Shown piece after piece: positions 9,608-32,400 of a stretch of DNA of 34,027 nt. Position numbers and translations under genes: made by a program. Source of the DNA: a virus; IMG/VR virus record IMGVR_UViG_3300030329_004568, positions 1 through 34,027 of that record, one strand, 5' to 3'. How positions within the stretch are numbered: the stretch's first letter is position 1; every line of letters begins with the position of its first letter. A model generated the notes under the pieces. It was given only the letters and a program-made list of their open reading frames with translations, was not told the origin of the DNA and did no database searches.

Positions 9608-12600
9608 ATGCCAGAGATTAAAAATGCCTTTACTGAAGGTAAAATGAACAAAGATCTCGATGAGAGATTAGTTCCAAATGGACATTATATTCACGCGGTG
9701 AATGTTGAAGTTACAACATCTGAAGACTCTGATGTTGGAACTGTTCAAAATATATATGGTAATTTAGGTATGTCTGGTAATGAACATGTACCTACTAATT
9801 CTGTATGCGTGGGTACTATTTCAGACGAAAGTAATGATAATTTATATTGGTTAACCGCAACAGATAAAATATCTGTAATGCAGAATAGAGCGTCTATTAA
9901 TCCTGACGCTCCCTTTAAAACATTTAACGCTATTTTTCAGTATAACGTAAACAATACTAATAGTGGTACCCCTATAGATCCTGTACTGGTAGATATACAT
10001 CAAATAGCAATTGCTCAAGAAGATTTTCAAAATTATCAAAGCGTTGTAACTACAATCGCCAACAAACGACTTATTATTTGTAATTATCCTATAGACATAA
10101 ATATTGGTATGCAAGTTGTATTTCATAATACTTCAAGTCAAGTTTCCTATCCTGCTGGACAAGTAATTGGAATAGAAGTGGGCCACCTTTTAGCTCCAAA
10201 TGGAACAGTAATAATTATGGATATTGGTCATAATGTAGGATTAACAGGGGATTATAATGTTGTAGAGTTTAAAGGGCATGTTACAGGATGGAATACTAGA
10301 ACCTTAATAACAGGTATCAATATAATTGATGATATGTTGTTTTGGACTGATAATGAGAATGAGCCTAAAAAGATAAATATAACTAGATCTAAAGAAGGTA
10401 CTTTTCAATATGGTACTCCTTCACAAGCAATACACACTAATCTTATATCTAATAATGAAAATAAAGGACCAATAAGAGAAGAGCATATAACAGTTATAAG
10501 AAAAAGACCTTTAACGCCAATTGTTTTAGGTATGAAAGGTGACGAAATTATTAATTCTGGAATTAGAGGAGAATGCACTTGGAATGGAAAGTATAGTGTG
10601 AGTAACACCGGAAGACGTCCCCGTGCAGGTGATCAGATTAATTGGACTTTATCTAATAACGTTGCTTCTTTAGATTCTGCTTCTTTTAATGGCACAAATA
10701 GATTTGATTTAGAAGAAGGTGATAATATAGTTATAAAATACCAATCAGATTCTATTGCTACTGGTGCTGATTTTCCTATTATAGATTATGATATACGTGC
10801 TAAAGTAATTTTAATAGATAATAACACGTGGGGAGGTGGACCAACAATTATTAGATTTGAAATTCTTCATTTAAAAACAGAAAATTATCCATTATCAGCT
10901 AGTAATGGTATGGTTTGGACCTTCCAAAAAGAAATTAAAAGAGAAGGTTTATTTGAATTGAAGTTTCCTAGATTTTCTTATAGATGGAAATTTGAAGATA
11001 GCGAATATTCTTCTTTTGCACCGTGGAGTAATGTTGCGTTTTTATCTGGTGATTTTCAATATCAAACTAAAGAAGGTTTTAATTTAGGAATGGTAAATCA
11101 ACTAAGGGAACTAACTTTATTTGATTTTGTAACGATGGATATGCCAGATGATGTTATTCAAGTAGACTTGTTATATAAAGAATCAGATTCTCCCAATGTA
11201 TATATAGTAGATAGTTTAAAGAAGGATGATCCTATTCCATTTGGTGGTTTAAAAAATCCTTGGTTATCTGAAGGATCACAAAGTATAGACGAACAAGGTT
11301 TACCATCTGGTTATAGTTTATCAAATTATTCTCAATTAGCAAAAGGCGCTTATAAAGTACAGTCAGATACTATATTTGCTTCAGTAGCTCCTAATCAATT
11401 ATTAAGAAATTGGGATGCTGTTCCTAGAAGAGCTTTAGCACAAGAAGTCATTGGTAATAGACTTGTTTACGCTAATTATACTAGGAACTTTGATTTAAAA
11501 CCAAATAATATTACTAAATTTGTAACAAATTTAACTACAGCCTTTAATTCTTTTAACGTTGGAGAGTGGCAAAGTAAATCTGTAAAAACAATGAGGGAAT
11601 ACCAAATTGGTATATCATATATGGATAAATATGGTAGAGAAACACCAGTATTTGCAAACAAAACATCAACTGTCACTATACCGAAATTATTTTCTGAAAA
11701 ATCTAACATTTTATATTCAAAAATAAATCATCTTCAACCTACAAATGCTAATTCTTATAAGTTTTATGTAAAAGAAACTTCTACTGGATATCATAATTTA
11801 ATAATGGATAGATGGTATGATGCTGAAGATGGAGATATTTGGCTATCCTTTAATTCACATGATAGAAATAAAGTTGATGAAGAAACATTTTTATATTTAA
11901 AAAGAGGTCATGGGGGAGATATTATAGATGATGAATATAAATATAAAATTATATCTATAAAAAATGAAGCCCCTGATTTTGTTAGAAAAATAAGAAAACA
12001 ATATGGTATAAAACCTAATGATCCAGTAAATGATTGGGGTATAACTACAGCAACTACACCACCTTTACCACCAACCGACATATATCATAGTGGAGGTACT
12101 TATAATAAAATGTTTTTCTATAATGATGGAAATCCCACAGTTGGTAAAAATGAGTTTCATATAAACGCAAATGTTATCAATGATACTAGTTGGAGTAAAG
12201 TTGGAGACTCGGAACCTTGGCAAGACGATCATAATATAAGAATACGTTTTCATAGATTTGCTGATACCGCACAAAACGTAATGCATAGAGGTAGTGGTAA
12301 TTTTTTCTATAAAAACGATCCACAAAATACATCTGGTTGGTATAAAATAACTAAAGTTACTTTAAATCATTCTGGAAGACAACACTTAATTCAGTTAGAT
12401 AGAGAATTAGAAAATGATTGTTTATTTGTTAATCCAACTGGAACAATAACAAGTAATGGAGCTATAGCCAGCCGTATATGTGTTGAAATAGCAGATGAAA
12501 CCCATGAGAATCTTCCTGAATTTGATGGTAGATTTTTCGTTAAAATAATAAATGATGCGACAATATCAAGTAAAATTATACAACAAGAGTCACATACGGT

Positions 12601-16936: not shown

Positions 16937-17668
16937 ATGGCAAGAAAAATAATACCATTAAAATACAAACCTAGTCCGTTTACATGGACATGGTCTCAAG
17001 ACCCAACAAAACAATCAACTGGATTCCAAGATTTTATAGGGAACATGTCAGAGAGGTTGTCGTTTGGGTTGTTTGATTATGATCCAAATACTAGACTAGA
17101 AGCAGAATTTGCTAGTCAAAAACAAGATTTAATAGGAATGAAAGATGAAGTTGGTAAAAATATTTATGCTGATTTAGTAAATCCATATGCTGGATTGACA
17201 GATCCAATGGCTAGTTTAGAAAATGTAGCAGAAGATTTAACAGTTGATCAAAGAGCTTTTGAGCAACAAAAAAGAACATTACAAAGTGGATTGAGTCAAG
17301 CTCTTGAAGCTTCTAAACAAACAGGTGTTTCAAGCGCTCAAGTTATAGCCAATCAATTATCACAAGCTTCGGGTGATATATCAGCATCTATAGGAGCGCA
17401 AGAATCTGCAAACGAAAGACTAAGAGTACAACAAGCTGCTGATTTACAATTAAAGAAAGCTCAAAGTGCGCAACAAACAGATTTAATGAAAAGACAAGGA
17501 AAGTTCCAAACAGAGATGCAAATGAGAAAAGGTGAAGAAGATGCTTTAGCTAGAACTCTAAATTTAAACCAGGCTTTATTATCATTAACTTCAGGAGAAC
17601 TTGCAAGAGAAGATCTTCAGGCTCAACAAGGTAGAGGATGGATGCAAAAGTTCTTTCATTTTTGGTAG
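16937..17668 (+). CDS. Ala/Gln-rich coiled-coil protein, putative internal (ejected) virion protein
   Basis: A 243-residue protein. After a Pro/Trp-containing start (MARKIIPLKYKPSPFTWTW), residues 100-215 are nearly continuous amphipathic helix rich in Ala, Gln, Ser and Lys, for example QTLQSGL-like and SAQVIANQLSQASGDISASI segments. The last ten residues are aromatic (GWMQKFFHFW) and could dip into a membrane. It is the first of three consecutive genes (243, 566, 3355 residues) after the tail genes. The size trend and order recall T7 gp14, gp15 and gp16, where the small partner is also Ala/Gln-rich and helical. The comparison is structural analogy, not demonstrated homology. The leader ends CAATATTATGGC with no Shine-Dalgarno. 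Confidence 0.55.
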   Translation: MARKIIPLKYKPSPFTWTWSQDPTKQSTGFQDFIGNMSERLSFGLFDYDPNTRLEAEFASQKQDLIGMKDEVGKNIYADLVNPYAGLTDPMASLENVAEDLTVDQRAFEQQKRTLQSGLSQALEASKQTGVSSAQVIANQLSQASGDISASIGAQESANERLRVQQAADLQLKKAQSAQQTDLMKRQGKFQTEMQMRKGEEDALARTLNLNQALLSLTSGELAREDLQAQQGRGWMQKFFHFW

Positions 17669-17690
17669 ACAAATAATTAAAATTTAAATA

Positions 17691-19391
17691 ATGGCAAGTA
17701 AAAGATCAAATACAAATATACTAGATGTAGCTGCTATGTATCAAGCTGGTGCCGCTGGAGCAAGTGCAAAAGGTTCTACTAAGCAAGATAAAAGTGGTCA
17801 AATACCATCGTTTTTAAAAACTATAGGTAATTATGCTTTAAGTTTTTATATGAAATCTATTGATTTACAAAAATCAGCTAGACTTTCTGAAAATAAACTC
17901 TTTATGGAATTAGACGAAGGAACAAAACATTTAGATATGGTAAGTGATAAAGTTGTTGGGTATAAAACAAAACTTACAGAAGCAAACACAATATTAAATA
18001 GCGCTAAATGGATGTTACGTCCAAATAGTGAAACTTATAAGAAAGCTGAAAAAGATAAATATGAAGCTGAATTTGCTATAAAAAATCTATCAAAACAATA
18101 TACAAATTACGGTGATTTTATACAAGCACAAACCCAAATAGCAGCGGGTAATTTTGTTTTAAACCCTGGCACTGATAAAGAAAAAATGGTTGGAATAAGT
18201 GGTGGAGCAACACCATTACAAGTGTTCAATACTTCTTTAGCTGCGGCTGGATTATTAGATCAAGCTATAGAACCTGATGAATTAGGTAATTTAGTTGTGA
18301 ATTATGAATTAATTACAGATTGGGATGATCCAAACACACCAGATGTAGTAGAAACCGTACAAGATTGGTTGGTAAAAGCTGGTGATACAGATGGTGATGG
18401 AGTGTTAAGTCAAGAAGAATTAAAAGTTTTTGGTGCTGATGCTCATCCAGGCATGTTTGATGCTATTACTACTACTTTAGCTGCTAGAAGCGCATATTCA
18501 TTAGCATCAGATTTACCAGGATATGATCCAGTAAAAGACTTTAATAGATTAGGTGTATATAAAGAAGATGGACAACCCTTAACAAAACCAAAAACAATTA
18601 AACTAGATGATATGATTGATAACTTTGCTTTTCCAAATAATCCTTATCTTGCAGATACTGGTAATAACTATGTCATGAAATTTTTAAGTTCTGGTGCTGA
18701 TGGAGAAGTTCTTACTTCTTATGATATGACTATTTCAAAAACTGGATTAACAAAAGATATAAATGATTTCACACCCACGGCTTTGGCAGATTATGTTTTT
18801 GGAGATAAAATATTTACATTAAGTCAAGACCAAAGAGACGCGTATAAGGCTAAATTTGGAATAGATGTGCCTCAAGATCTTAGTATAGGAGATGGTTTAA
18901 CTTTAAAGTGGATGTTTGATAATGACATGGCTTTTACTGACATGGATAATAGTGGTACTATAGACGCTACAGATGTAAAGTTACAATTACTTGGTGCGAA
19001 TGAAATTACAAAAGAAAGTATATTAAATAAATCATATGATAGAGGAAAAATTGTTAATTTATTTCACGATCAAGCTGTAGAAGGTTATAATAGAAACAAA
19101 AAACAATGGGATGCTGATAATCCAGCAACATCTTCAAGAACTAATGCTGAAAAAATATCAAGTGATCATTTCCATAAATTATATAATGTTGGAACAAGTA
19201 TTGATGATGGAACAATGGTAGCCGGAGATACTTTTGACATGAGTGGCATAACTTTCACGTACACTGGAACTGGTTATAATTTTGAATACCTCGATGCTTA
19301 TGGAATAAAGAAGACAAGAACTCTAAGTAATTTACGGTCATCACCTGAGGGAGCCCCAATGCACACGAGAAGAACTTTTCCATTCTTATAA
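17691..19391 (+). CDS. Internal virion protein candidate with EF-hand calcium loops
   Basis: A 566-residue protein, the middle member of the internal-protein trio. Residues 1-30 are small and Ala/Gly/Ser-rich; residues 40-150 are helical. Residues 232-243 (DTDGDGVLSQEE) form a perfect 12-residue EF-hand calcium loop, with Asp at positions 1, 3 and 5, Gly at 6, hydrophobic at 8 and Glu at 12. Residues 417-428 (DMDNSGTIDATD) form a second loop of the dockerin or EF-hand type ending in Asp. The C-terminal 100 residues are β-rich (MSGITFTYTGTGYNFEYLDA). Calcium could control folding before packing and after exposure to seawater during ejection. I know no named family for the whole protein. It begins 22 bases after its neighbour and is followed by the giant gene after 11 bases. 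Confidence 0.55.
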   Translation: MASKRSNTNILDVAAMYQAGAAGASAKGSTKQDKSGQIPSFLKTIGNYALSFYMKSIDLQKSARLSENKLFMELDEGTKHLDMVSDKVVGYKTKLTEANTILNSAKWMLRPNSETYKKAEKDKYEAEFAIKNLSKQYTNYGDFIQAQTQIAAGNFVLNPGTDKEKMVGISGGATPLQVFNTSLAAAGLLDQAIEPDELGNLVVNYELITDWDDPNTPDVVETVQDWLVKAGDTDGDGVLSQEELKVFGADAHPGMFDAITTTLAARSAYSLASDLPGYDPVKDFNRLGVYKEDGQPLTKPKTIKLDDMIDNFAFPNNPYLADTGNNYVMKFLSSGADGEVLTSYDMTISKTGLTKDINDFTPTALADYVFGDKIFTLSQDQRDAYKAKFGIDVPQDLSIGDGLTLKWMFDNDMAFTDMDNSGTIDATDVKLQLLGANEITKESILNKSYDRGKIVNLFHDQAVEGYNRNKKQWDADNPATSSRTNAEKISSDHFHKLYNVGTSIDDGTMVAGDTFDMSGITFTYTGTGYNFEYLDAYGIKKTRTLSNLRSSPEGAPMHTRRTFPFL

Positions 19392-19402
19392 TCCTATAGT
19401 AA

Positions 19403-22400
19403 ATGAAGAAATATAAACATTCAAACGGACAAACATATACTGAAAGTCAACTTTTAGAATGGGCACAAAGTGAAGGTATGACTTTAGATGAGTATTTCGC
19501 TCAATATGGACATCATTTTAAAGACGTTGCTTTAGGAAGTGATGAGCATGCTGATATAGATGGTTTTCTTGATGCTGCCTCTTCTGTATTTAGAGCGGAA
19601 GAGAATGTTGTTCCTTATTTAAATGAATATTATAAAGATAAAAAGTTTAATGGAAAATCTGTTAGATTTTCTCAAGCTCAACCTGGAAGAGATACGTTTG
19701 AAGTATTTATAGGTGAATGGGTGGTAGGAGAAAATGGTGAAATGGAATGGGTTGGCGAAGAATTTGTTACAGACAAAGGAAGTGGAACCCAATTTAATTT
19801 AGATTGGCGAAGACATGATAATAGAGACGTTTTTAATAATATGACGAAATATATAGATGAAGCGACTCAATCAACAAATGAATCTGAAGATTGGCAGGAA
19901 ATTGAAAGTGAATTAACGAGGATTTTTGAACCAAAATTAGTAACACAAACAGCAGCGTCAAGAGGCGCGTCTGGAGATGATTTTTATTATACACAAGAAG
20001 AAACAGCTACACAAGAACTAACTACATTATTAAGTGAAAAAGGTTTTGAAGTTAAAGAATCTGGTAAACTTGGAAACGAAATAATTATAACAACACCAGG
20101 TAATGTAGAAGGAAAATTTGATTTAGATAAATTAACAAGACTTCATGATTATTATCTTGATAAAGGTATTAATAAAAATCCTTATCAAAAGATTTTTGAT
20201 TTTATTAAAAGAAATCCAACTAAAGATCCCGAAATACTTGAACAAGAAAAAGAATTTATAAACTTCTTATCAAATCCAGCTATTATTTCTGAAAGAGGAG
20301 GAATTTTACCACCAAGTGAATCAAATCAACCTTGGGGTTCTATTGGAGAACAAGATATATATGGAGGTGGAATTTTTAGTCCAGAAAATATGAAAATTAT
20401 TACTGGAGATGAGTTTTTAAGAGGAATTGCAACTAGTGATGAGTTTGTAAAAAAACTACGTGATGAATTTGGTTATTCTTTTTGGTGGGATGATTCAGAA
20501 AATAATGAAAATAGAATGAGGTTTCCCAAGCTATCTAAAGAACGTATGGAAGAGTTAGTTACAGAAACTTTCAATAATTTAGTTTACATAGAAAGAAGTA
20601 AATATTTAAATGGTTTAGCAACAGATCAAATATCAGATATAGAAAACGCTATAGAGTCCGAAGGCTATTATGAGTTTATGGGGGAAAAAGTGACTACATT
20701 TGCTGAGTTTTTTGAGGTTTATAGAAATGATTTTATCTCAACATTTGCTGATGAAAACGAAAGATTATTAGCTGAAGCTAATATGAAATTAATGTATGAT
20801 AGTACTTTAACGGAAGAGGAGAAAGCAGGATATATACTTCAAAGAGACGAAGCTATAGCGGCTATGGATAACTACATACCTCTTATAAATTATGAGACTG
20901 GTATGAGAATTAATGTTCCTGAAAATCAATTAGAAATATACGAATCACAAGGATATACTAGTAATAAAACTAATATAGATTTAGCTTTAGCAGAAATAGA
21001 ATCAAACATCTTAAGTTATAAAGAAAATAATTCTGATAAATCAGAGTTTGAAATAATTGAAGATGCAGTTGAAGAGAATACTTTGCAAATAATTAGAATG
21101 CAAGATTATTTAGATACTGAATACACGTTTTGGCAAAGAAAATATATAGGAGGATCACAACCTTCTCTTCAAAGTTATAAAGAAACAGCACAAGTTGAAG
21201 AAGGTCCTTATAAAAAATGGGGGACAGAAAAAGTTACTTTAACATTAAGAGAGGCAATACGCTTAAGTAAACACAGTGATCATGAACTTTATCCTGCTGA
21301 AGATATACCTTTATTTCAAAAACCTAATGGAGATGTTATTAATATTAATCCAGATTTAGGACATCCTGATTTTGAAGTTGACAATTTAACAGGGAACGAT
21401 ATAACTGGTTCAATGAAAGGTCCTAAATATATTTACAAAGGTAGAGATGAAGGATCTGTTGTAAAAGAATTAAACAAAAAACATTGGACTCAATTTGCAG
21501 AAGTTGTACAAACAGATCTTAATTATTTACTTGATAAGCAAGAGGCTTATAAAACATTATTTTATTTAAATGAAGATATAACAAGTATTGGGGATAAACA
21601 AGAAGGTTATTTTGGAGGATCTAGTACATTATGGGGTAATTTTGGTGTTCAAACAGTTAGCGGTATTATAGGTGGTGAAAACTATAAAAGGATGTTTGGA
21701 ATGAGTGAGATGGATAAGATAGATAATGCTGCAAATGAATTAACAAACTTAGGGTTTAAACTAACACCTGATCAAAAAAATTACCAATATAGAGGTTTAG
21801 GACAAACAGTTATGGAGGGATTTGGTGGAAGTATTGGTATATTATTAGAATTTGCTCTTGCTAACAAAGCCACTGCAGCATTAAAAGCAACTAAACTTCT
21901 TGGAAAAGGAAAAACATTAAAAACTGTTTTAGATACATATAAAGGAAATAGATATAAAAATTCTTATAGAGTTTTAAGTCAACCACAAATAGAAAAATTA
22001 GCAGCATTTAAAAATATGACTGTACCTGAATATGCGGCTCAATGGGGCATGAAAAGTATAGGTCCAAACAGGATACAGTATGGCGCAGCTATGTTTACAG
22101 AATCTTTAATAGAAGGAACAAAATTTTGGGCAATTGGAGGAGAAGGTGTTTTTGGTGGAGTTGGTGGAAGTAGAGAGTTTTTTACTGGGTTTGGATTTGG
22201 ATTAGCAGGGCAAATTTTTGCGCCTATTTTTGGAACAATAACGGAAAGTACTTTCACTGCTTCAAAAATTCTTAAAGCTGCTAACGTACCTAAAACAACT
22301 AAATGGTTAGCAAATCAATCCTCTAAATTAAATAAAATATATGAATTAGGATTTAAAAATCCTACAAATTTCGTTATTGGATCTGAAATAGGAGAACTTG

Positions 22401-25400
22401 CTAACGCTATATCTCAAGAAGCATTCCTAAATTTACCAGGTTGGAGTCATTATATGGAAGAACATTGGGGTGAATATAGTGAGCCTTCTAAAAGATTAAT
22501 GTCTAATTTTATAATTGGTATTGGTTTTGGATTTACTCATAAAGCTACGTATGGAAAAAGAATTGGTGGAAAATTCCAATGGTTCCCTGATTTTAGAACA
22601 ATAGAAAGCATGAAAAATGCTAAGAAAGAAGCTTGGAATAAAATGTATAATTGGGATACAAGATATGAAGTTAAAGATAAAAAAGGAAATATAGTAAAAT
22701 TAACTAAAGAGCAAATGAGTAAAAAAGCTCTAGATAGAGGATGGAGAATAGTGAAAGGTCCTGGATGGAAGATAAATAATAAACTATCTAAAGAAGAATT
22801 CCAAAAACATGAAGATACGTTTTCTGTATTCGATAGCATGTATAAACGTGCTAAAGGATTGCTAGAGTTAAAAGATCCTATTAGAGGAAGAGAAAAATTA
22901 GATAAAGCATACCGAAAACAATTAAAATACTATGAAGAAGCAGGTTGGAAAGTACATATAGAATGGGGGACAAATAAGACAATGAAAAGCAAGGCTTATG
23001 AGGAAAGCATAGTAAATAAAGATGGTAAACCCACTAAACATATAAGAATAAAATACAATGTTGATCAAGTTAGTTTAGGATTAGCGCCTCATGAAATGGG
23101 ACATTCTGGTATGAAAGTACTATTTGGTGAAAACGCTAGACTTAAAGCTGATTTTTTAAATAAATTATGGAGAGTAGCTAAAGAAATAGAAATAGATCAA
23201 ATACATACTGAAGGACCTAAGAAGGGAGAGTACATGTCTTTAGCTGCGGCTTTAAAGTTAAAAAATGGAAAGTGGGATTTAACTGCTTCGCCGTGGGAAA
23301 ACGCTAGAATATCTGAATGGGAATTATTCAGTCATATAGCTGAAAGATTAGCAGATCCAGCAAATTTAGTAAAATTAAAAGCATCTAATGCTTTTGGTAA
23401 ATTTAAAAATTTACTTAATGAAACTATTGGTAATGAACTTGGACAAAAATATGATTTAAAATTAGAATCAGATGTAGTTAGATTTTTTGGTGATTATATA
23501 GAATCTATAAATAAAGGGGCTAATTCTTTAAAAGTTTTAAAACATTTAAAAGATGTTATTATAGATCCTAAAGATTTAGGTAAAGAAGAGTTAGCTATGT
23601 GGGAAGCTGAAGGTTTTTCATTTACAAGACAGGGCACTGCAAAAGCAACAACATTAGAATCAAGTGAATTAATACAAAAAAATAAAAAACTATTATCTGA
23701 ACATTATAAAGATGGAAAATGGACAAATAAAAGTAAAAAAGTTGAATTTGAAAAAAATATAGAGAAAATAAAGAAACAAAAAAGTCTTATTGAAAAAGTT
23801 GTAAAAAAAGAATCTGGAGAATTAGGTTATAAAGAAGGAAGATCTAATAGTGAAATTAAAAATGAAAATTCTAGAATAGTAGAAACAGTAATTGAATTAT
23901 TAAGACAATCAAAAGTAAATAGAATAAAAGATCTTCCAAGAGGTGAAATTAAAGATGCTATAATAACTAATTTATTAAATAATAATATAGGTGTTATAAA
24001 TAAACTAGCTGGTAAAGCTGAACAAACAGCTTTAAAAGATAAAAATGTTCCTAAAGATCAAATTCCATCTAATAAAAGTTTTGTACAAGAATATACTTTA
24101 GAAGCTTTAAAATTAATAAATAATTATAATCCAAAACTTAACCCAGAGTTTGGGGCTTATTTACAAAATAAAAAGACAGGTTTACCTGTTAAATATGGTG
24201 CTGTTTTAAAATCTTTATTAAAAGGACAAACAAAACATAAGGCTGATGTTGGTAAAGCAGATGTTGAAACTAAGGCTGAATACCAAAAAGATTTTGAAAT
24301 TGGCAAAGGTGATAGAGTTAAAGCTGAAGATGGTATAGTGTTAATAAATGAGTTTTTTAGATCTAAAGAAATAGAAACTAAATTATTAGAAGAAGGATTA
24401 GCAAAAGATCCTAATTTTAAAATAAAAACTGAACAAACCATAGATATTAAAAAACGAGATATGGTTGTTAAAGAGATCGAAAGTGTAATTGAAAAATTAT
24501 CACCAAAAGAATTAGTTAATATTGATTTTGTGAATATTAGAGAGTTTCATAAAAAATTCGGAGGAGAAAAACCACATGAAATATACACCGCTATAAGTAA
24601 AAGAATATCAGATATAATAACTGGTAAAGGATATTCTAATAAAGTTAATTTTCTTGGAGAAAAATGGAGTGGATTTTATAAATCAGAACCACCTAATAAT
24701 GTGGTGAGAATGTCTGGTGTTAAAACACAAAAAGGAGTAAAAGGTGGAGAAGGTAGATCTATAGAATTAAGAAACCGTATTTTAAATATGGATTACAAAA
24801 GAAGTGGGAAAAGAACTACTGATGATGCTACAGGTGCTTCAATTGAAGTATGGAACAAAGTTAAGAACATGACTCAAAAAGAGTGGTTAGCCAAAAGACA
24901 TATAGAGATGGTAGATGTTCCAGTACCACGTCCAGAAGGTGGTTTTAATATAGAAGTTCAATATAAACTTAAAAAGAATATTTCAGCAAGCAAAAAGTTA
25001 GATATTGATGTAACACTTCAAGAAGGATATAGAAGTCTTGTAGACCAAGTGTTAGTTAGGTGGATGGAAAAAAATTATAGTAAAAATCCTAAGTTAATGA
25101 CTATGATGTCTGAGGGTCAAATAATAGCTAAATATACAGCTGGAAGATCTCCTAGATTAGCATCAGATAGACTTGGTAATCAAACGTTTAAAAATCAAGA
25201 TTTTTTCTATAAAGAAATAAATAGTGAAAGATTTGGTAGAATACTTCATTATTATAGATCTAAATTTGATAGTGAGAAAGGTGTTATAGAAGCAATAAAA
25301 GAACATTTTACATTTCTTTCTGGAAAACACACGATCTCTAAAGATGATTTAGCACAAATTGGTAAAGATTTTGCTAAAGAATTTAAATTTGCACCAAAAA

Positions 25401-28400
25401 TAACACAAGAAATGATTACTCAAAAAGCAATTAAATCTATTGAGTTTACAACAAACCTTGATGTTATAGATGGAAAAGCTAATGTAGAGAAGTATGTGAA
25501 CGAAAAAGCATGGAAAAGTGTTGACAGGATAATAGATTTACAATTAGCATCTAGAAAAATAACAAAAGAAATAATAAAGAAACATGGTCCTGAGGCTTAT
25601 GAAGCGATGCTTTCAGCCGGTGAGTCTGGAGGTGGAGGTTTTGGTTACGCTAGAAGTATAGGAGATTTAGTGGTTGGTAAATACCATAAAAATAGATATT
25701 CTATATGGGAATCTATAGAGATGACTCGTGATATGGTAAAAGATATTGTTGCCGAATTAAAAGCTGAAGGATTTAAATTAAAAAAATATAAAGGACCTAA
25801 AAAACCAGAATCTGATCTACAAGGAATAAAAGGGAGTGAAACTACGAAAGGAGTATTTGTAGAAATAGGTGGTCTTAGTACTAAATGGAATCAAAAAGCG
25901 ATAAATAAATCTAATAAAATAGCCGAATATAATAAAACTATTCTTAAGGACGCGTCTAAAATAATACGAGAACTTTATAAAAAAGGAGAAATAAATAATA
26001 TACAAGCTAGAATGTGGGTGGAGATGCATTTTGCTAATATGACAGGTTTAGGTAAAAAATCTGCGTCTTTAGCATTGGTACCAAACATGACTCCAGCTCA
26101 AATGAGGGCTACATGGGGAGGTAAAGCTAAAGATTATGTATTAGAACATACTACTCCAGCTCAATACGTTAAAGCTAGAATGTATGATTATATTATAAAT
26201 GGCGGAAAAAATAAAAAGAATGCATTTGATTTAACGATTAGAGATTATCATACAACTTTTATACCTAAAGGATTGGATATAATGGTAAATAAAGTATTTA
26301 AAACTAATTTACCTAGTGCTCATTTACCAGGTATGGATCCTATTTCAGCTCGATATTATGAAGCTTTTTATTCGTCTGATTTTAATTTTGGATTAAAAAA
26401 CGTTATGTTTGGTAAAAATAATTTACAAAAAACTTATGATCATCATCCAAATTTAAATTTTAAACAAAAACAAGAAAAAATCCAAGAAATTGGTTTACAA
26501 TATCAACAAATATTTCAAAAACTAGGTTTATCAAAAGGAACTTCTAAAAGATTAAATTCTGAAAATTTAGATAATTTACGTAGCATTCATGACGCTCTAA
26601 GTAAAGGAAAGGTATCTAAAAAGAAAAGAGGTATGAGTACTTGGGATTTTGATGATACATTAGCTAAAACAAAATCAAAAATTAAATTTACAAGACCTGA
26701 TGGAACAAAAGGAAAGTTAAATGCAGAGCAATATGCTAAAGATTATGTTAAATTAGCTGAACAAGGATATAAGTTTGATTTCTCAGAGTTTAATTTAGTT
26801 GTAGAGCCAACAATAGGTCCTTTCTTTAAAAAGTTTAAGGAAAGAGTTAAGAAATTTGGTCCTGAACATAACTATATATTAACAGCAAGACCACCAGAAT
26901 CTGCAAAAGCAATTTATGAATTTTTAAAATCTCAAGGTGTAAATATACCTTTAGAAAATATAAAAGGATTAGGAAATAGTACTGGAGAGGCAAAGGCATT
27001 GTGGATGCTAAAGAAATTCTCAGAAGGATATAATGATATGTATTTTGCTGATGATGCTTTAGCAAATGTTAAAGCCGTTAGAGACGTTTTAAGTCAATTA
27101 GACGTTAAATCAAAAGTACAGCAAGCTAGACGTTTAAATAGCGATAACATGAGTTCGGACTTTAATAAGATATTAGAAGAAACCAAAGGTGTTGGAGCTG
27201 AAAAAACTTATAGTGAAATACAAGCTAAAATGAAAGGCAAGAGAACTATAAACTGGAGAACACCTGGGGCTGAAGATTTTTCAGGATTAGTGACATATGC
27301 TTTTGCTGGTAAGGGTAAAAAGGGCGAAGCACATAAAAAGTTTTTTGATGAAAATTTACAAAAACCTTTTAATAGAGCTTATGAAGAAATACATGCTATG
27401 AAGCAAACTATTTCTGGTGATTATAAAGCCTTGAGAAAAGAGTTTAAAGAGGTTAGAAAAGATTTAAATGTTAAACTTAAAGATTTTGAAGGTAAATGGG
27501 GTGAAGGTTCAACTGGTGAGTTTACTGTTGATAATGCTTTAAGAGTTTATCTTTGGAATAAAGCTGGTTATGAAGTACCTGGGATATCTAAGAAAGACGC
27601 AAGAACACTTAGTGATTTTGTTACTAAAGATGCTAATTTAGTAGCATTTGCAGAAAATTTACGAGCTATAACAAAGTTAAAAGAAGGTTATATTAAACCA
27701 TCAAAACATTGGTTAGGTGAAAATATAACTATGGATATGAATAATGTTGTTGAAAAAGTTTATAGAAAAGAATTTTTAACTGAGTTTGTTCAAAATAGAG
27801 AAAAGATATTTGGAAAATGGGACAATGGTAGAATAATTGGTTCAAACATGAATAAGATTGAGGCTCTTTATGGTTCTAGACATAGAGAAGCACTTGAAAA
27901 TATATTATGGAGAATGGAAAAAGGTACAAACAGAACAGTTGGTAAAGACTCTAATGTTAACCGATGGATGAATTGGATGAATAATGCTACTGGTACTATA
28001 ATGTTTTTCAATCAAAAATCTGCGGCTTTACAAACTATATCTAGTTTGAATTATGTGAACGGAACGTTTAATAATCCACTTAGAGCCGCTCAAGCTTTTG
28101 CCAATCAACCTCAATATTGGAAAGATTTTGCTAAAATTTGGAATTCAGATATGATGCTACAACGACGAGCTGGATTAAAAATAAACGTTGAAGCATCTGA
28201 AATGATAGAGAGAATTGGGGATGGTAAAAACGCCGCTGAAAGAGCTTTAGCATATCTTTTAGAGAAAGGATTTATACCAACTAAATACGCTGATAGTTTT
28301 GCTATTGCTTCTGGTGGTGCTAGTTTTTATAGAAATAGTATAAGAAAATATAAAAAACAAGGTTTAAGCATAAAAGAAGCAGAAGCGAGAGCTTGGGAGG

Positions 28401-29470
28401 ATCTTATGTTTATGACTGAAGCTACACAACAATCATCTAGACCTGATTTAATATCTATGCAGCAAGCCTCTGCTCTTGGTAGACCTATATTAGCTTTTGC
28501 TAATACACCAATGCAAATGCTTAGAAGACATAAAAGACGTATTCAAGATATTGCTAATCAAAGAGGTAATACAGCAGAAAATGTATTAAGCGCGTTATAT
28601 TATGGATTTGCACAAACAATGGTATTTAGCTTTTTACAAAACGCTATGTTCGCTGTTGATGATGAAAGCGAAGATCCAAAAGATATAAAACACGCTGAAA
28701 AACAAAAAACTAGATATGTTAATACTATAATGGATTCCTATTTGAGAGGTTGGGGTACTGGTGGAGCAACTATATCTGCTCTAAAAAATGGTGTTGTAAG
28801 TTTTGTTAAAGAATCCGAAAAAGATTATAAAGCTGATTATGGTAACACTATTATAGAGTTACTCAATGTTTCTCCTCCTATTGGTTCTAAAGCTAGAAAG
28901 CTATATAGTTCTTTTAAAACATATAAATACAATAAAGAAGTTATAGGTGAAATGGGAATGGATATAGATAATCCAGCTGTATTGGCAGTTGCTAATGTTA
29001 TATCTGCTGTTACAAACGTACCTACTGATCGAGCAGTTATGAAAGTAAATAATATTAGAGATGCTGCATATGGTGATTTTGAAACTTGGCAAAGATTAGC
29101 TATGCTTATGGGTTGGAACAAATGGGTTCTAGGAGTAGAAGGAGGACCTGGATTGGAGAAAGTTGAAAAAACTAAAAGTGATATTAAGTTAAAAAAGAAA
29201 ATGGAGAAATATGGAGTTGAAACAGAGCAAGAGGTATTAAATATTGAAAAAGGAAAAGAAGTTCGTAAATTAAATAAAAAACAACAACAAAGAGTTTTAA
29301 CAGCTATTGGATTAGAAAGTTGGGAAGTTTTAGAGCTACGTAAAGAGCAAGATAGAATAGATGCAGTAATAAAATATTGGAATAATAATCCTGAAAAAAT
29401 TGATTCAATATTAACGCTTCCAACAGATTCACTACCAGAATTTATTCAAAGAACATCGATTACTTATTAA
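19403..29470 (+). CDS. Giant polyvalent internal virion protein with zinc-protease motif and HAD phosphatase domain
   Basis: A 3355-residue protein occupying 30% of the window. Residues 1-37 form an N-terminal box (HSNGQTYTESQLLEWAQSEG, then MTLDEYFAQYG) that recurs at the start of giant marine phage proteins. Three Gly-rich hydrophobic stretches lie near 804-830, 908-947 and 1036-1046 and could insert in membranes. HEMGH at 1230-1234, with downstream acids E1305/E1307 in SEWELFSHIAERL, fits a gluzincin-type zinc protease. Residues 2412-2560 hold a full HAD set: DFDDT (2415-2419), T2494 in YILTARP, K2531, and DD (2550-2551) in YFADDALANV. The C-terminal part (about 2860-3130, with SAALQTISSLNYVNG and ASALGRPILAFANTPMQML) resembles the LPD38-type domain of large polyvalent phage proteins. 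The likely role is ejection with the DNA and action in the host envelope or cytoplasm. No RNA polymerase motif is seen. Confidence 0.72.
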   Translation: MKKYKHSNGQTYTESQLLEWAQSEGMTLDEYFAQYGHHFKDVALGSDEHADIDGFLDAASSVFRAEENVVPYLNEYYKDKKFNGKSVRFSQAQPGRDTFEVFIGEWVVGENGEMEWVGEEFVTDKGSGTQFNLDWRRHDNRDVFNNMTKYIDEATQSTNESEDWQEIESELTRIFEPKLVTQTAASRGASGDDFYYTQEETATQELTTLLSEKGFEVKESGKLGNEIIITTPGNVEGKFDLDKLTRLHDYYLDKGINKNPYQKIFDFIKRNPTKDPEILEQEKEFINFLSNPAIISERGGILPPSESNQPWGSIGEQDIYGGGIFSPENMKIITGDEFLRGIATSDEFVKKLRDEFGYSFWWDDSENNENRMRFPKLSKERMEELVTETFNNLVYIERSKYLNGLATDQISDIENAIESEGYYEFMGEKVTTFAEFFEVYRNDFISTFADENERLLAEANMKLMYDSTLTEEEKAGYILQRDEAIAAMDNYIPLINYETGMRINVPENQLEIYESQGYTSNKTNIDLALAEIESNILSYKENNSDKSEFEIIEDAVEENTLQIIRMQDYLDTEYTFWQRKYIGGSQPSLQSYKETAQVEEGPYKKWGTEKVTLTLREAIRLSKHSDHELYPAEDIPLFQKPNGDVININPDLGHPDFEVDNLTGNDITGSMKGPKYIYKGRDEGSVVKELNKKHWTQFAEVVQTDLNYLLDKQEAYKTLFYLNEDITSIGDKQEGYFGGSSTLWGNFGVQTVSGIIGGENYKRMFGMSEMDKIDNAANELTNLGFKLTPDQKNYQYRGLGQTVMEGFGGSIGILLEFALANKATAALKATKLLGKGKTLKTVLDTYKGNRYKNSYRVLSQPQIEKLAAFKNMTVPEYAAQWGMKSIGPNRIQYGAAMFTESLIEGTKFWAIGGEGVFGGVGGSREFFTGFGFGLAGQIFAPIFGTITESTFTASKILKAANVPKTTKWLANQSSKLNKIYELGFKNPTNFVIGSEIGELANAISQEAFLNLPGWSHYMEEHWGEYSEPSKRLMSNFIIGIGFGFTHKATYGKRIGGKFQWFPDFRTIESMKNAKKEAWNKMYNWDTRYEVKDKKGNIVKLTKEQMSKKALDRGWRIVKGPGWKINNKLSKEEFQKHEDTFSVFDSMYKRAKGLLELKDPIRGREKLDKAYRKQLKYYEEAGWKVHIEWGTNKTMKSKAYEESIVNKDGKPTKHIRIKYNVDQVSLGLAPHEMGHSGMKVLFGENARLKADFLNKLWRVAKEIEIDQIHTEGPKKGEYMSLAAALKLKNGKWDLTASPWENARISEWELFSHIAERLADPANLVKLKASNAFGKFKNLLNETIGNELGQKYDLKLESDVVRFFGDYIESINKGANSLKVLKHLKDVIIDPKDLGKEELAMWEAEGFSFTRQGTAKATTLESSELIQKNKKLLSEHYKDGKWTNKSKKVEFEKNIEKIKKQKSLIEKVVKKESGELGYKEGRSNSEIKNENSRIVETVIELLRQSKVNRIKDLPRGEIKDAIITNLLNNNIGVINKLAGKAEQTALKDKNVPKDQIPSNKSFVQEYTLEALKLINNYNPKLNPEFGAYLQNKKTGLPVKYGAVLKSLLKGQTKHKADVGKADVETKAEYQKDFEIGKGDRVKAEDGIVLINEFFRSKEIETKLLEEGLAKDPNFKIKTEQTIDIKKRDMVVKEIESVIEKLSPKELVNIDFVNIREFHKKFGGEKPHEIYTAISKRISDIITGKGYSNKVNFLGEKWSGFYKSEPPNNVVRMSGVKTQKGVKGGEGRSIELRNRILNMDYKRSGKRTTDDATGASIEVWNKVKNMTQKEWLAKRHIEMVDVPVPRPEGGFNIEVQYKLKKNISASKKLDIDVTLQEGYRSLVDQVLVRWMEKNYSKNPKLMTMMSEGQIIAKYTAGRSPRLASDRLGNQTFKNQDFFYKEINSERFGRILHYYRSKFDSEKGVIEAIKEHFTFLSGKHTISKDDLAQIGKDFAKEFKFAPKITQEMITQKAIKSIEFTTNLDVIDGKANVEKYVNEKAWKSVDRIIDLQLASRKITKEIIKKHGPEAYEAMLSAGESGGGGFGYARSIGDLVVGKYHKNRYSIWESIEMTRDMVKDIVAELKAEGFKLKKYKGPKKPESDLQGIKGSETTKGVFVEIGGLSTKWNQKAINKSNKIAEYNKTILKDASKIIRELYKKGEINNIQARMWVEMHFANMTGLGKKSASLALVPNMTPAQMRATWGGKAKDYVLEHTTPAQYVKARMYDYIINGGKNKKNAFDLTIRDYHTTFIPKGLDIMVNKVFKTNLPSAHLPGMDPISARYYEAFYSSDFNFGLKNVMFGKNNLQKTYDHHPNLNFKQKQEKIQEIGLQYQQIFQKLGLSKGTSKRLNSENLDNLRSIHDALSKGKVSKKKRGMSTWDFDDTLAKTKSKIKFTRPDGTKGKLNAEQYAKDYVKLAEQGYKFDFSEFNLVVEPTIGPFFKKFKERVKKFGPEHNYILTARPPESAKAIYEFLKSQGVNIPLENIKGLGNSTGEAKALWMLKKFSEGYNDMYFADDALANVKAVRDVLSQLDVKSKVQQARRLNSDNMSSDFNKILEETKGVGAEKTYSEIQAKMKGKRTINWRTPGAEDFSGLVTYAFAGKGKKGEAHKKFFDENLQKPFNRAYEEIHAMKQTISGDYKALRKEFKEVRKDLNVKLKDFEGKWGEGSTGEFTVDNALRVYLWNKAGYEVPGISKKDARTLSDFVTKDANLVAFAENLRAITKLKEGYIKPSKHWLGENITMDMNNVVEKVYRKEFLTEFVQNREKIFGKWDNGRIIGSNMNKIEALYGSRHREALENILWRMEKGTNRTVGKDSNVNRWMNWMNNATGTIMFFNQKSAALQTISSLNYVNGTFNNPLRAAQAFANQPQYWKDFAKIWNSDMMLQRRAGLKINVEASEMIERIGDGKNAAERALAYLLEKGFIPTKYADSFAIASGGASFYRNSIRKYKKQGLSIKEAEARAWEDLMFMTEATQQSSRPDLISMQQASALGRPILAFANTPMQMLRRHKRRIQDIANQRGNTAENVLSALYYGFAQTMVFSFLQNAMFAVDDESEDPKDIKHAEKQKTRYVNTIMDSYLRGWGTGGATISALKNGVVSFVKESEKDYKADYGNTIIELLNVSPPIGSKARKLYSSFKTYKYNKEVIGEMGMDIDNPAVLAVANVISAVTNVPTDRAVMKVNNIRDAAYGDFETWQRLAMLMGWNKWVLGVEGGPGLEKVEKTKSDIKLKKKMEKYGVETEQEVLNIEKGKEVRKLNKKQQQRVLTAIGLESWEVLELRKEQDRIDAVIKYWNNNPEKIDSILTLPTDSLPEFIQRTSITY

Positions 29471-29536: not shown

Positions 29537-29815
29537 ATGGCAAAAGAATTAAACGAAGAAACAGGATTTAAGGTAAGTATAAAAACTTTAGTAGGTATTG
29601 GTTTTGGAATGGCTACAATTATAAGTATGTGGTTTATGCTTCAAGCTGATATTGCTGAGGCTAAAGAGTTGCCAGAGCCAGCTGAACCAGAAGTTTCTAG
29701 AATGGAGTTTGATATGAAAGATCAAATGATTAGACAAACTATAATAACAACTCAAGAAGATGTAAAAGAAATAAAAAAATCAATTGAGAAAATAGAAGAT
29801 AAGCTTTATGAATAA
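29537..29815 (+). CDS. Small single-span membrane protein with coiled coil (spanin- or holin-like candidate)
   Basis: A 92-residue protein with a short cytoplasmic leader, one hydrophobic span at about residues 17-35 (LVGIGFGMATIISMWFML), a Pro/Glu-rich linker (AKELPEPAEPEVS) and a C-terminal charged helix (residues 55-92, TTQEDVKEIKKSIEKIEDKL). N-in topology with an outward coiled coil is the layout of an inner-membrane spanin, and single-span holins also exist. No lysis enzyme is visible in the window, so lysis is only one option; another is anchoring of the exported proteins encoded next. The next gene begins inside its last codons (overlap 29808-29815), so the two are translationally coupled. 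It is the first gene of the operon running to 34011. Confidence 0.5.
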   Translation: MAKELNEETGFKVSIKTLVGIGFGMATIISMWFMLQADIAEAKELPEPAEPEVSRMEFDMKDQMIRQTIITTQEDVKEIKKSIEKIEDKLYE

Positions 29816-30179
29816 AATAGATGCTACTTGGAAGGTGTTTAGTGTGTATATGTTAATAATTATATTTATGATACTCGCTACAACAGTTAAAGGACAAAAC
29901 ATTTGTAAAAGCGATGTTTGTGTTGTTGAATTTAATGCAGGGTGGAATGAAAACAATAGCGTTGATTGGTTAAACAAACTAACCGATTGCGGTGTTAAAA
30001 AAATAAGTATTGATGAAGGAGATTGGCAAAAGAAATACAATATAGTTGTTGTTCCAACAATTATAGTTTTTAATGGTGAAGAAGTTGAAAGATTTCAAGC
30101 AGATTTAAGTTTTGCAATGCAAGCTAAACTAGAAGATGTACAAGAAATTGTTGATGAAATATTAATGGAAGATTTTTAA
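29808..30179 (+). CDS. Exported thioredoxin-fold protein lacking the catalytic cysteines
   Basis: A 123-residue protein. Residues 8-29 are hydrophobic (signal peptide or anchor, possible cleavage after VKG at 29), so the rest would lie in the periplasm. The mature part follows the thioredoxin plan: VCVVEFNAGW (residues 37-46) aligns with the active-site strand and its Trp, and VVPTIIVFNGEEVERFQADL (81-100) carries the cis-proline (P83). The two catalytic cysteines of the CGPC motif are replaced by Asn (N47 and N50 in WNENN), so it cannot exchange disulfides by the usual route. The remaining Cys (33, 38 and 61) lie elsewhere. A binding or chaperone role is more likely than redox catalysis. Host thioredoxin is a polymerase partner in T7, but here the signal peptide argues against that. 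It is followed after one base by the secreted repeat protein. Confidence 0.7.
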   Translation: MNKIDATWKVFSVYMLIIIFMILATTVKGQNICKSDVCVVEFNAGWNENNSVDWLNKLTDCGVKKISIDEGDWQKKYNIVVVPTIIVFNGEEVERFQADLSFAMQAKLEDVQEIVDEILMEDF

Positions 30180-30180
30180 A

Positions 30181-32400
30181 ATGAAAAAACTATTACTCTT
30201 ATTACTATTACCTGTTATAACTTTTGCGCAAAAAGAAGTTGTTATACACATTAAAACAGATAGTTATCCTAGTGAAACTAAATGGGTTTTACATAAAGAC
30301 TCATATCCAAATGGTGATACTATAGGTCATGTTCCTTATGGCTATTATACTCAAGGAAACACTATGCATAGAGATACTATTTATATGGCAGATAGTATTA
30401 CTAATATTGCTTTTGTTATATATGATAGCTATGGAGACGGTATAGTTAATGGAGAGTATTATGTAACTATATGTGGTGATACAGTAGTTAATTACCCTGT
30501 GTCTACGTTTTCAAACGGTTTAATACATAATAGAACTGTTCCACAATGCTTACCGAATCCGCCTCCTAGTTGTATACCAACTATGGTAAACATTAATTTA
30601 GATCAATACCAAAGTGAAACAACATGGGATATAAAAGATACTAATGGTGCTATTTTAGCCGCAGGAGGACCATATACAACTGCTCCTGATTATCAACCAC
30701 AATTTGAATCAGTGTGTTTACCCACAGGTAATCTAACTTTTACAATATATGATTCTTATGGAGATGGACTAGCTGGTAGCTTGTGGGGAGGACAAGATGG
30801 ATCTTACTATCTGATACAATGCGGAGATACCTTAGTGCACGGTACAGTTGCTAACTTTGGGACAGATTCCACACACTCATTTATATCAGATACCTGCGTG
30901 CCTCCACCACCAGTACCAGGATGTATGGATGAGAATTATTTAGAGTATAATCCATTAGCTACAATTAGTGACAGTAGCTGTTTAACTTTAAAGGTAATTG
31001 GATGTACTGATAGCACAATGTTTAATTATGATTCATTAGCAAACTTTATGGATTATATCGACAGTTGTGATTATACTCTTATATTACATGATCTTGTAGG
31101 TAATGGTTGGGTTGGTAGTAAATTAGAAATATATCAAGGAGATGATACTAGTGTTTTTTATATGAACACGCCTAGTTTGAACCAACAATTTACAATACAA
31201 CTAAACGCGCCTAAAGAAGTTAAAGTTAAGTTCTTTGTTACATCACAAGCTCAACACACGGCTTTAGAATGTGGGTTTACATTACGTAATCCAATGGGAG
31301 ATACAGTATTAAGTGTTGTCCCTCCGTTTATTGTTCCATTTCAAATATATACAGGTATTACATATTGCGGTAACGAATGTGTTGAAGTGGTTAACGGGTG
31401 TATGGATTCATTGGCTTTTAATTATGATTCTTTAGCTAATACAGCAGAGCAGTGTTATTATGTTCCAGGATGTACATCTCCTGCATATCTAGAGTATCAT
31501 ATCGATACATCTAACGCAGTTTATTCAGATTTTAATATACAGGATAGTTGTCAAACTTTAGCTGTATTTGGGTGTACAGATTCAACAGCGTTTAATTATG
31601 AGTCTGAGGCTAATGTAGATAACGGTGGATGTGTTCCTATTATATATGGATGCATGGAAAGTTTAGCATTTAATTATAATCCGTTAGCTAATACTCCCGA
31701 CACGTGTATAGCACATATATACGGATGTACTGATCCTACTATGTTTAACTATGATTCATTAGCAAATACCGATGATGGTAGTTGTATAGAATTCGTGTAT
31801 GGATGTACTGATTCAACTATGTTTAATTTTAATCCTTTAGCAAATGCTTCTAGTAATCTCGTTCCTTGTATCCCTTATACTTATGGTTGTACTGACCCAA
31901 GTATGTCCAATTACAACCCAGAGGCTAATACGGAAGATTTCAGTTGTATACCATATATTTATGGGTGTATGGATTCTACTGCTCTTAATTATGATTCAAC
32001 TGCTAACACGGATAACGGTTCTTGTATCCAAGTTATACAGGGCTGTATGGATCAAAGCGCTTGGAATTACGATATCTTGGCGAACGTCCACGATAGTAGC
32101 TCTTGTCTTTATGATGCTGGTTGTATTACTGGTCCTGGCGTTCCTTATTGGTTAAACGACCCTTGTTATGAATGGGTAATATTAGTTGATGATTATTGCT
32201 GCGAGAACGAATGGGATACTATATGTCAAGCTACATATAATTATTGTGAAGGCACTTGGATAGGACCTTTACCAAAAAGATTTAATAAGGAATTAATAAT
32301 GGTTACAGACATATTAGGTAGACCAGCAAAACCAAATAGTCGACAAGTATTATTATTTATTTACGATGATGGAACAGTGGAGAAAAAATATATAAAATGA
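30181..32400 (+). CDS. Secreted Cys-rich repeat protein with a probable T9SS sorting tail
   Basis: A 739-residue protein that looks like a host-type Bacteroidota secreted protein. Residues 1-16 (MKKLLLLLLLPVITFA) are a signal peptide with a likely cut before Gln17. Two related β domains follow (about 22-125 and 136-240), each with IYDSYGDG (residues 80-87 and 189-196) and Cys pairs. A third divergent copy is at 298-400 (ILHDLVGNGW). Eleven short repeats start at 247, 274, 406, 430, 464, 490, 515, 541, 569, 595 and 621, with consensus GC-[TM]-D-x-x-x-x-NY-[DN]-x-x-AN-x-D-x-x-x-C. The motif CCENEWDTIC (673-682) follows. The end (residues 702-739, with VTDILGRPA and FIYDDGTVEKKYIK) matches the second half of a type A T9SS sorting domain. 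It would be exported across the inner membrane and passed to the host T9SS. Adhesion or cell-surface modification is inferred. Confidence 0.75.
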   Translation: MKKLLLLLLLPVITFAQKEVVIHIKTDSYPSETKWVLHKDSYPNGDTIGHVPYGYYTQGNTMHRDTIYMADSITNIAFVIYDSYGDGIVNGEYYVTICGDTVVNYPVSTFSNGLIHNRTVPQCLPNPPPSCIPTMVNINLDQYQSETTWDIKDTNGAILAAGGPYTTAPDYQPQFESVCLPTGNLTFTIYDSYGDGLAGSLWGGQDGSYYLIQCGDTLVHGTVANFGTDSTHSFISDTCVPPPPVPGCMDENYLEYNPLATISDSSCLTLKVIGCTDSTMFNYDSLANFMDYIDSCDYTLILHDLVGNGWVGSKLEIYQGDDTSVFYMNTPSLNQQFTIQLNAPKEVKVKFFVTSQAQHTALECGFTLRNPMGDTVLSVVPPFIVPFQIYTGITYCGNECVEVVNGCMDSLAFNYDSLANTAEQCYYVPGCTSPAYLEYHIDTSNAVYSDFNIQDSCQTLAVFGCTDSTAFNYESEANVDNGGCVPIIYGCMESLAFNYNPLANTPDTCIAHIYGCTDPTMFNYDSLANTDDGSCIEFVYGCTDSTMFNFNPLANASSNLVPCIPYTYGCTDPSMSNYNPEANTEDFSCIPYIYGCMDSTALNYDSTANTDNGSCIQVIQGCMDQSAWNYDILANVHDSSSCLYDAGCITGPGVPYWLNDPCYEWVILVDDYCCENEWDTICQATYNYCEGTWIGPLPKRFNKELIMVTDILGRPAKPNSRQVLLFIYDDGTVEKKYIK
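30919..32106 (+). repeat. Array of 11 diverged Cys-bounded repeats within the secreted protein
   Basis: Eleven coding repeats of roughly 21-30 residues, some separated by spacer or by the third β domain (residues 298-400). Core features are an opening GCTD or GCMD, a central NY with a following SLAN, PLAN or STAN, an acidic D-N-G or D-D-G step, and a closing Cys. From residue 464 onward the units run in near-perfect tandem at 25-28 residue spacing. DNA identity is only moderate, so this is an old protein-level expansion rather than a recent DNA duplication. Confidence 0.85.

Follow-up and report, generated by a model that had tools for sequence, protein, structure and literature searches.

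The window (the whole stretch of DNA that was analysed, 34,027 nucleotides) is a 34-kb linear virus fragment from IMG/VR. Its + strand opens with a truncated terminase gene; then come the portal gene, one for a 408-aa protein, a gene at the capsid position that encodes a virion structural protein, several more structural genes and the gene of a 1892-aa protein. Genes for smaller proteins follow and, lastly, those for proteins of 243, 566 and 3355 aa. The 3355-aa protein, hereafter the giant, is encoded by the final gene of a podovirus structural operon. The window's portal shows 53% identity to that of a Manatee Spring podovirus and 44% to that of Flavobacterium phage elemo. The 1892-aa protein (9608-15286) has at its end a muzzle C-terminal domain of the crAss type (PF25729, E = 1.4e-10), a link between the tails of these podoviruses and crAss-like phages. 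A sequence-only reading of the window had described the giant as one uninterrupted frame of 3355 residues at 19403-29470, and we confirmed this frame from its ATG to its stop codon. The relevant genes and features are as follows:

16937..17668, + strand: upstream gene, 243 aa, without cysteine; homologous to Gundel_1 ORF72, phi38:1 gp99 and phi18:3 gp120
17691..19391, + strand: upstream gene, 566 aa, without cysteine; second of the proposed ejection set
19403..29470, + strand: giant polyvalent/ejection protein, 3355 aa, cysteine-free; uninterrupted ORF
19403..21739, + strand: N-terminal variable region, residues 1-779; tested segments mainly in the closest relatives
21806..22234, + strand: Gly-rich hydrophobic stretches, residues 802-944; Kyte-Doolittle peaks at 802 and 926; possible membrane-interacting segment
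22877..23521, + strand: zincin (metallopeptidase) domain, residues ~1159-1373, predicted from conservation and model
23090..23104, + strand: HEMGH active-site motif, residues 1230-1234, from sequence and alignment
23321..23323, + strand: E1307, invariant glutamate (alignment), predicted third zinc ligand
25940..26602, + strand: conserved domain of unknown function preceding the HAD, residues 2180-2400; in 60 of 122 giants
26621..27133, + strand: HAD phosphatase domain, Pnkp 3'-phosphatase-like, residues 2407-2577, from motifs, profile and model
26645..26659, + strand: HAD motif I, D2415-x-D2417-x-T2419 (alignment)
26698..26699, + strand: kinase nesting point (P2432/D2433), vacant in the window; 12 relatives carry a P-loop kinase here
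26882..26890, + strand: HAD motif II, T2494-A-R2496 (alignment)
26993..26995, + strand: HAD motif III, K2531 (alignment)
27050..27055, + strand: HAD motif IV, D2550 D2551 (alignment)
27200..29182, + strand: C-terminal conserved block, residues 2600-3260, helical; in 121 of 122 giants

Downstream of the giant lie a 123-aa protein (29808-30179) with an N-terminal hydrophobic helix, thioredoxin-like by eye, and a 739-aa protein (30181-32400) with 37 cysteines, a signal-peptide-like start, GCTDSxMFNYDxxANxxDGSC repeats and a C-terminus resembling a type 9 secretion tail. Pfam scans of both proteins gave no match. Cysteine-rich ORFs are also found downstream of the giant in relatives L015 and L018.

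Searches with the whole giant against Pfam, NCBIfam and PHROGs returned nothing apart from phrog_415 on the HAD; no match was found in the PDB by sequence, and tblastn in named phages gave just one weak match, in Gundel. Relatives were more informative. The first scan found a single one, L004, in which an HExxH motif is followed by a HAD, the order being kept, and further scans queried with alignments of the conserved blocks gave overlapping sets of 542 and 548 confirmed relatives, 80 of each being retained; the giant has more than 500 relatives in IMG/VR. Our comparison set consisted of 122 non-redundant complete giants with a median length of 2995 aa. All 122 contain HExxH; where its distance to HAD motif IV was measured, in 106 giants, it lies ~910-1720 residues ahead of that motif. 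Profiles of window segments matched the C-terminal block in 121 giants and the HAD in 114 (both counts are partly a selection effect, as these blocks served as queries). For the zincin segment the count was 86, for the 2180-2400 domain 60 and for the tested N-terminal segments 5. These counts indicate a family architecture in which the C-terminal core stays constant, the HAD and the zincin nearly so, and the front is exchanged; the N-terminal third would be a rapidly exchanged region, and any role for this variable front can be suggested only tentatively. Genome bins contributed ten of the relatives' contigs, and for half of these the bin was of Flavobacteriales or Saprospiraceae type; the host of this marine phage is probably a flavobacterium. 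Two relatives, L182 and L183, are on contigs binned as Candidatus Woesearchaeota, which are probably misbinned phage contigs.

The HEMGH noticed near residue 1230 in the sequence-only reading is located at residues 1230-1234, and invariant alignment columns rule out a chance occurrence: when the protease segment was aligned for 70 relatives, each 11-43% identical to the window, the sole invariant columns were H1230, E1231, H1234 and E1307. The predicted model has the order expected of a zincin: a helix comes first, then a three-stranded sheet and the HExxH helix, and further on a helix begins at E1307. This order has been reported for the zincins of polyvalent proteins (PMC5512222). VIA-align placed Zmp1- and lethal-factor-type zincin-like chains on this segment, a weak match (Z 5.4-5.6 over 136-167 residues); Foldseek against the PDB with the 701-residue model returned nothing significant, and a search with the MPTase-PolyVal profile gave no matches. 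Most VIA rows for the 701-residue model were left unused, being coiled-coil matches of its C-terminal helix pair, and PDB matches of the zincin-segment profile were dismissed as located in coiled-coil stretches. In the elemo giant, the HEIFH region is also matched by the zincin profile (E = 1e-6, single-comparison E-value). The domain is thus predicted to be a metallopeptidase, with a fold match weaker than that of the HAD.

Zincins are the commonest domain of polyvalent proteins as described in PMC5512222, for which self-processing is the usual proposal, and we tentatively suggest that the zincin of the giant (H1230, E1231, H1234, E1307) most likely cuts the giant itself, which would release domains in the virion or after entry. 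The same domain could instead be a maturation protease acting on other virion proteins during head assembly, or could cut a host target after injection, leaving the giant intact. Invariant catalytic residues say nothing on substrate, and PMC5512222 discusses both in-head processing and action after injection; set against the precedent of self-processing among polyvalent zincins, we consider this alternative plausible but somewhat doubtful.

The second enzyme is more sharply defined. A complete four-motif HAD had been proposed at residues 2412-2560, and each motif is in place: D2415/D2417 (W-DFDDT), T2494 (ILTAR, with R2496), K2531 and D2550/D2551 (YFADD). Across 58 relatives none of the motif residues varies, the R of LTAR included. 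Structure prediction, which the sequence-only reading had named as a check on both enzymes, gave the HAD its Rossmann-like core, with pLDDT mostly 76-89, and gave the zincin its weak fold match (Z about 5.5); four motifs on such a core place the domain in the HAD superfamily. The best fit to the model was Pnkp1 (Z 13.3, 2.3 A over 128 residues), followed by the T4 Pnkp 3'-phosphatase (Z 13.2), all other HADs scoring at most 10.9, and the sole PHROG match of the domain is the polynucleotide kinase phrog_415 (E = 5.6e-4), so that by both structure and family it lies closer to Pnkp than to other HADs. Foldseek against the PDB with the 1186-residue model found nothing significant, the first, non-significant rows being class C acid phosphatases; the HAD profile had no match in the PDB by sequence, and HAD-IA and DUF2608 matches in relatives are weak and generic. 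With moderate confidence, then, the domain appears to resemble Pnkp-type polynucleotide 3'-phosphatases most closely, and would heal DNA or RNA ends early in infection.

In twelve relatives (e.g., L111, L019, L021, L022, and L169) HAD motifs I and II are separated by an insert of ~200 residues, a P-loop kinase that keeps its P-loop; the insert matches AAA_33 with E-values down to 1e-12, and Zeta_toxin matches nearly as well (E = 5e-9 to 8e-12), AAA_33 being the better of the two in most inserts. By sequence, no match to the insert was found in the PDB. Two relatives, L069 and L082, have the same type of kinase and lack the HAD motifs. On a tree of the C-terminal block, whose 14 rows labelled "kinase" include these 2 with kinase alone and no HAD, the kinase label must change at least 8 times; the relatives with a kinase fall into more than one clade, and a single gain without losses was rejected for this reason. 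Together with four relatives, all of them bearing the kinase, the window makes up a group of five with full support, and judging from this tree its lineage probably lost the nested kinase. The HAD core superposes on T4 Pnkp and bacterial Pnkp1 (Z 12.4-13.3), and some relatives resemble T4 Pnkp in holding both kinase and phosphatase; unlike those enzymes, the HAD is here part of a giant protein, and the kinase is absent in the window. The kinase and phosphatase of T4 Pnkp are in tandem, whereas in the relatives the kinase is nested inside the HAD.

A Pnkp-like HAD together with a nested or swapped kinase suggests a nucleic-acid end-healing unit, and this is probably what the HAD/kinase module is. 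Alternatively, the protein might be ejected with a HAD that acts on a small molecule or a protein (as a nucleotidase, phosphoserine phosphatase or similar) and, in relatives, a Zeta-toxin-like UDP-sugar kinase, altering host metabolism. The Zeta_toxin matches of the inserts, the annotation of one BFVD relative as UDP-N-acetylglucosamine kinase, the class C acid phosphatases leading the Foldseek rows and the generic HAD-IA and DUF2608 matches are all compatible with this. We nonetheless think it rather unlikely: Pnkp phosphatases are clearly top in structural alignment, phrog_415 is the only PHROG match, AAA_33 is ahead of Zeta_toxin in most inserts, and kinase and phosphatase interchange at the same position.

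The C-terminal block is helical and conserved to position ~3260. In BFVD, matches to its predicted model include proteins whose annotation reads "Large polyvalent protein associated domain," "ART-PolyVal-like," or "PolyVal ADP-ribosyltransferase," as well as MuF proteins and the Gundel giant, to which the block is also homologous by sequence (E = 8e-7, single-comparison E-value). The C-terminal region had earlier been called LPD38-like; the Pfam LPD38 profile gave no sequence match, although the LPD38 control gave no signal either, so the label survives only in the broader sense that the predicted fold matches polyvalent-annotated proteins. The C-terminal part of the N4 virion RNA polymerase is required for packaging, and by analogy the conserved ~660 residues may form a common packaging/ejection core.

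The polyvalent proteins described in PMC5512222 are likewise very large, combine unrelated enzyme domains with a zincin metallopeptidase hub and are thought to be injected. On the other side, searches with the Pfam LPD38 and MPTase-PolyVal profiles gave no match to the giant, the LPD38 control being silent as well, and the main text of PMC5512222 names no HAD or Pnkp-type phosphatase. Two unrelated predicted enzyme domains with invariant catalytic residues, the zincin and the HAD, reside in one large polypeptide, and the earlier idea of a multi-tool protein with at least two enzymatic activities is upheld by conservation and structure prediction for both folds, less strongly for the zincin. 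We read the giant as a polyvalent/ejection protein of a known kind; what is new is the combination of a zincin with a Pnkp-like HAD and, in relatives, the nested kinase.

The giant has no cysteine in its 3355 aa. Across the 122 giants there are 28 cysteines in 351,924 residues outside the last 120 residues and 261 inside them. Fingers of the C-x9-C-x9-C-x2-H type are present at the C-termini of 52 of the 122 giants, e.g., L015 and L101 (DUF5763 in L101), and the finger label requires at least 13 changes on the tree. Where giants have cysteines, these mostly come in threes or sixes as C-terminal fingers. In the family, the two genes directly upstream encode 0.03% and 0.02% cysteine, compared with 0.61% for other upstream genes. 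A similar pattern was found in eight phages (T7, SP6, phiKMV, P-SSP7, N4, LIT1, P22, and epsilon15), whose ejection proteins contain 7 cysteines in 21,652 residues (0.032%) and whose other virion/terminase proteins contain 146 in 21,382 (0.683%), a ~20-fold difference. This comparison was designed after the pattern in the window had been seen, with controls hand-chosen from the same loci and an ejection role that is annotation-based in some of the phages. Epsilon15 is a partial exception, its gp14-17 holding 5 of the 7 cysteines found, and the lambda tape measure protein gpH has 0 cysteines in 853 residues. Cysteine depletion is a correlate of ejection, not proof of it. In a limited search of the literature we found no earlier statement of cysteine-free ejection proteins as a rule, and cysteine goes unmentioned in a review of ejection proteins (PMC8954989), which describes their refolding after portal passage and an oxidising periplasm; either of these could select against cysteine.

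The same slot is occupied in isolated flavophages by proteins of 3694 aa (elemo), 3859 aa (ctfjg026), 2482 aa (Gundel), 1691 aa (phi38:1) and 1935 aa (phi18:3). The slot proteins gp120, gp121 and gp123 of phi18:3 were annotated from virion MS/MS, and gp123 is the positional counterpart of the giant. Most of the isolates' giants share with that of the window only the slot, the absence of cysteine or the size, sequence homology of the giant reaching only Gundel (C-terminal) and elemo (zincin). Homologues of the 243-aa upstream gene are Gundel ORF72 (E = 5.8e-8, single comparison), phi38:1 gp99 and phi18:3 gp120, and the cassette is in this way linked to a virion protein through sequence as well as position; for the 566-aa gene, homology to the isolates' counterparts was not detected. 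As in the gp16-type arrangement, the tail genes are followed by a run of three genes, of which the last and longest encodes the giant, virion presence being taken from the phi18:3 counterparts.

Like gp16 of T7 and of P22, then, the giant would be the largest of three consecutive internal virion proteins, and it is cysteine-free as they are. T7 gp16 bears a transglycosylase (PMC8954989), and relative L087 has a reminiscent peptidoglycan hydrolase, GH108, at its N-terminus (residues 17-132). The giant is, however, 2.5 times larger than T7 gp16, has a zincin and a HAD, and has no detectable sequence homology to either gp16. N4 gp50, the virion RNA polymerase, is comparable in size (~3500 aa), is cysteine-free and sits beside two smaller cysteine-free virion proteins; a zincin has been reported in its C-terminal part (PMC5512222). 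Unlike gp50, the giant contains no recognised polymerase, and its conserved blocks have no significant profile match to gp50. Profile comparison of these blocks with the ejection/cargo proteins of T7, N4, P22, SP6 and crAss phages gave background level only; we propose that the giant works like podovirus ejection proteins, and do not claim homology to those of T7, P22, SP6 or N4.

On the basis of the slot, the virion MS/MS of the phi18:3 counterpart, the homology of the 243-aa gene and the cysteine depletion, it is very likely that the giant is carried inside the particle and enters the host along with the DNA. In this reading the three adjacent genes at 16937-29470 would encode a set of internal virion (ejection) proteins, with the giant as the largest; it would be packaged into the head and then driven with the DNA through portal and tail. 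A purely structural inner-core or tape-like protein, its enzyme domains being relics, would also suit a positional counterpart found in virions and a length that is mostly helical without recognised fold; this is improbable, however, given that the catalytic residues of both enzymes are retained across divergent relatives, those of the zincin while the surrounding sequence drops to 11-40% identity, and that the nested kinase retains its P-loop. Still less probable is a late-expressed, never packaged enzyme of the infected cell (for assembly, lysis or host take-over), since the phi18:3 counterpart was detected in virions, the gene sits within a structural operon, and the cysteine depletion is common to ejection proteins and absent from most surrounding genes. 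An ejected giant with a C-terminal core, a self-cutting zincin, a Pnkp-type HAD and an exchanged N-terminus is thus the reading we favor, and we hold it to be likely as a whole, with strong support for its anatomy, family, slot, catalytic residues and cysteine depletion.

A formerly unannotatable giant now belongs to a family with readable architecture and testable active sites. In the widest form, which we put forward as a conjecture that may well not hold in full, the giant belongs to a large and uncharacterised family of enzymes, delivered by the virion, that heal nucleic-acid ends; with a Pnkp-like phosphatase, and with or without a nested kinase, they would repair ends cut by host nucleases at infection. 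In the same conjecture, portal-ejected proteins would in general be constrained to avoid cysteine other than as C-terminal zinc-finger ligands. The near-absence of cysteine offers a cheap rule for spotting ejected proteins in unannotated genomes, and also a testable hypothesis on the unfolding of ejected proteins or the oxidising periplasm that they traverse. The nested or swapped kinase and phosphatase, for their part, point to end repair that may be supplied by the virion itself when host nucleases strike.
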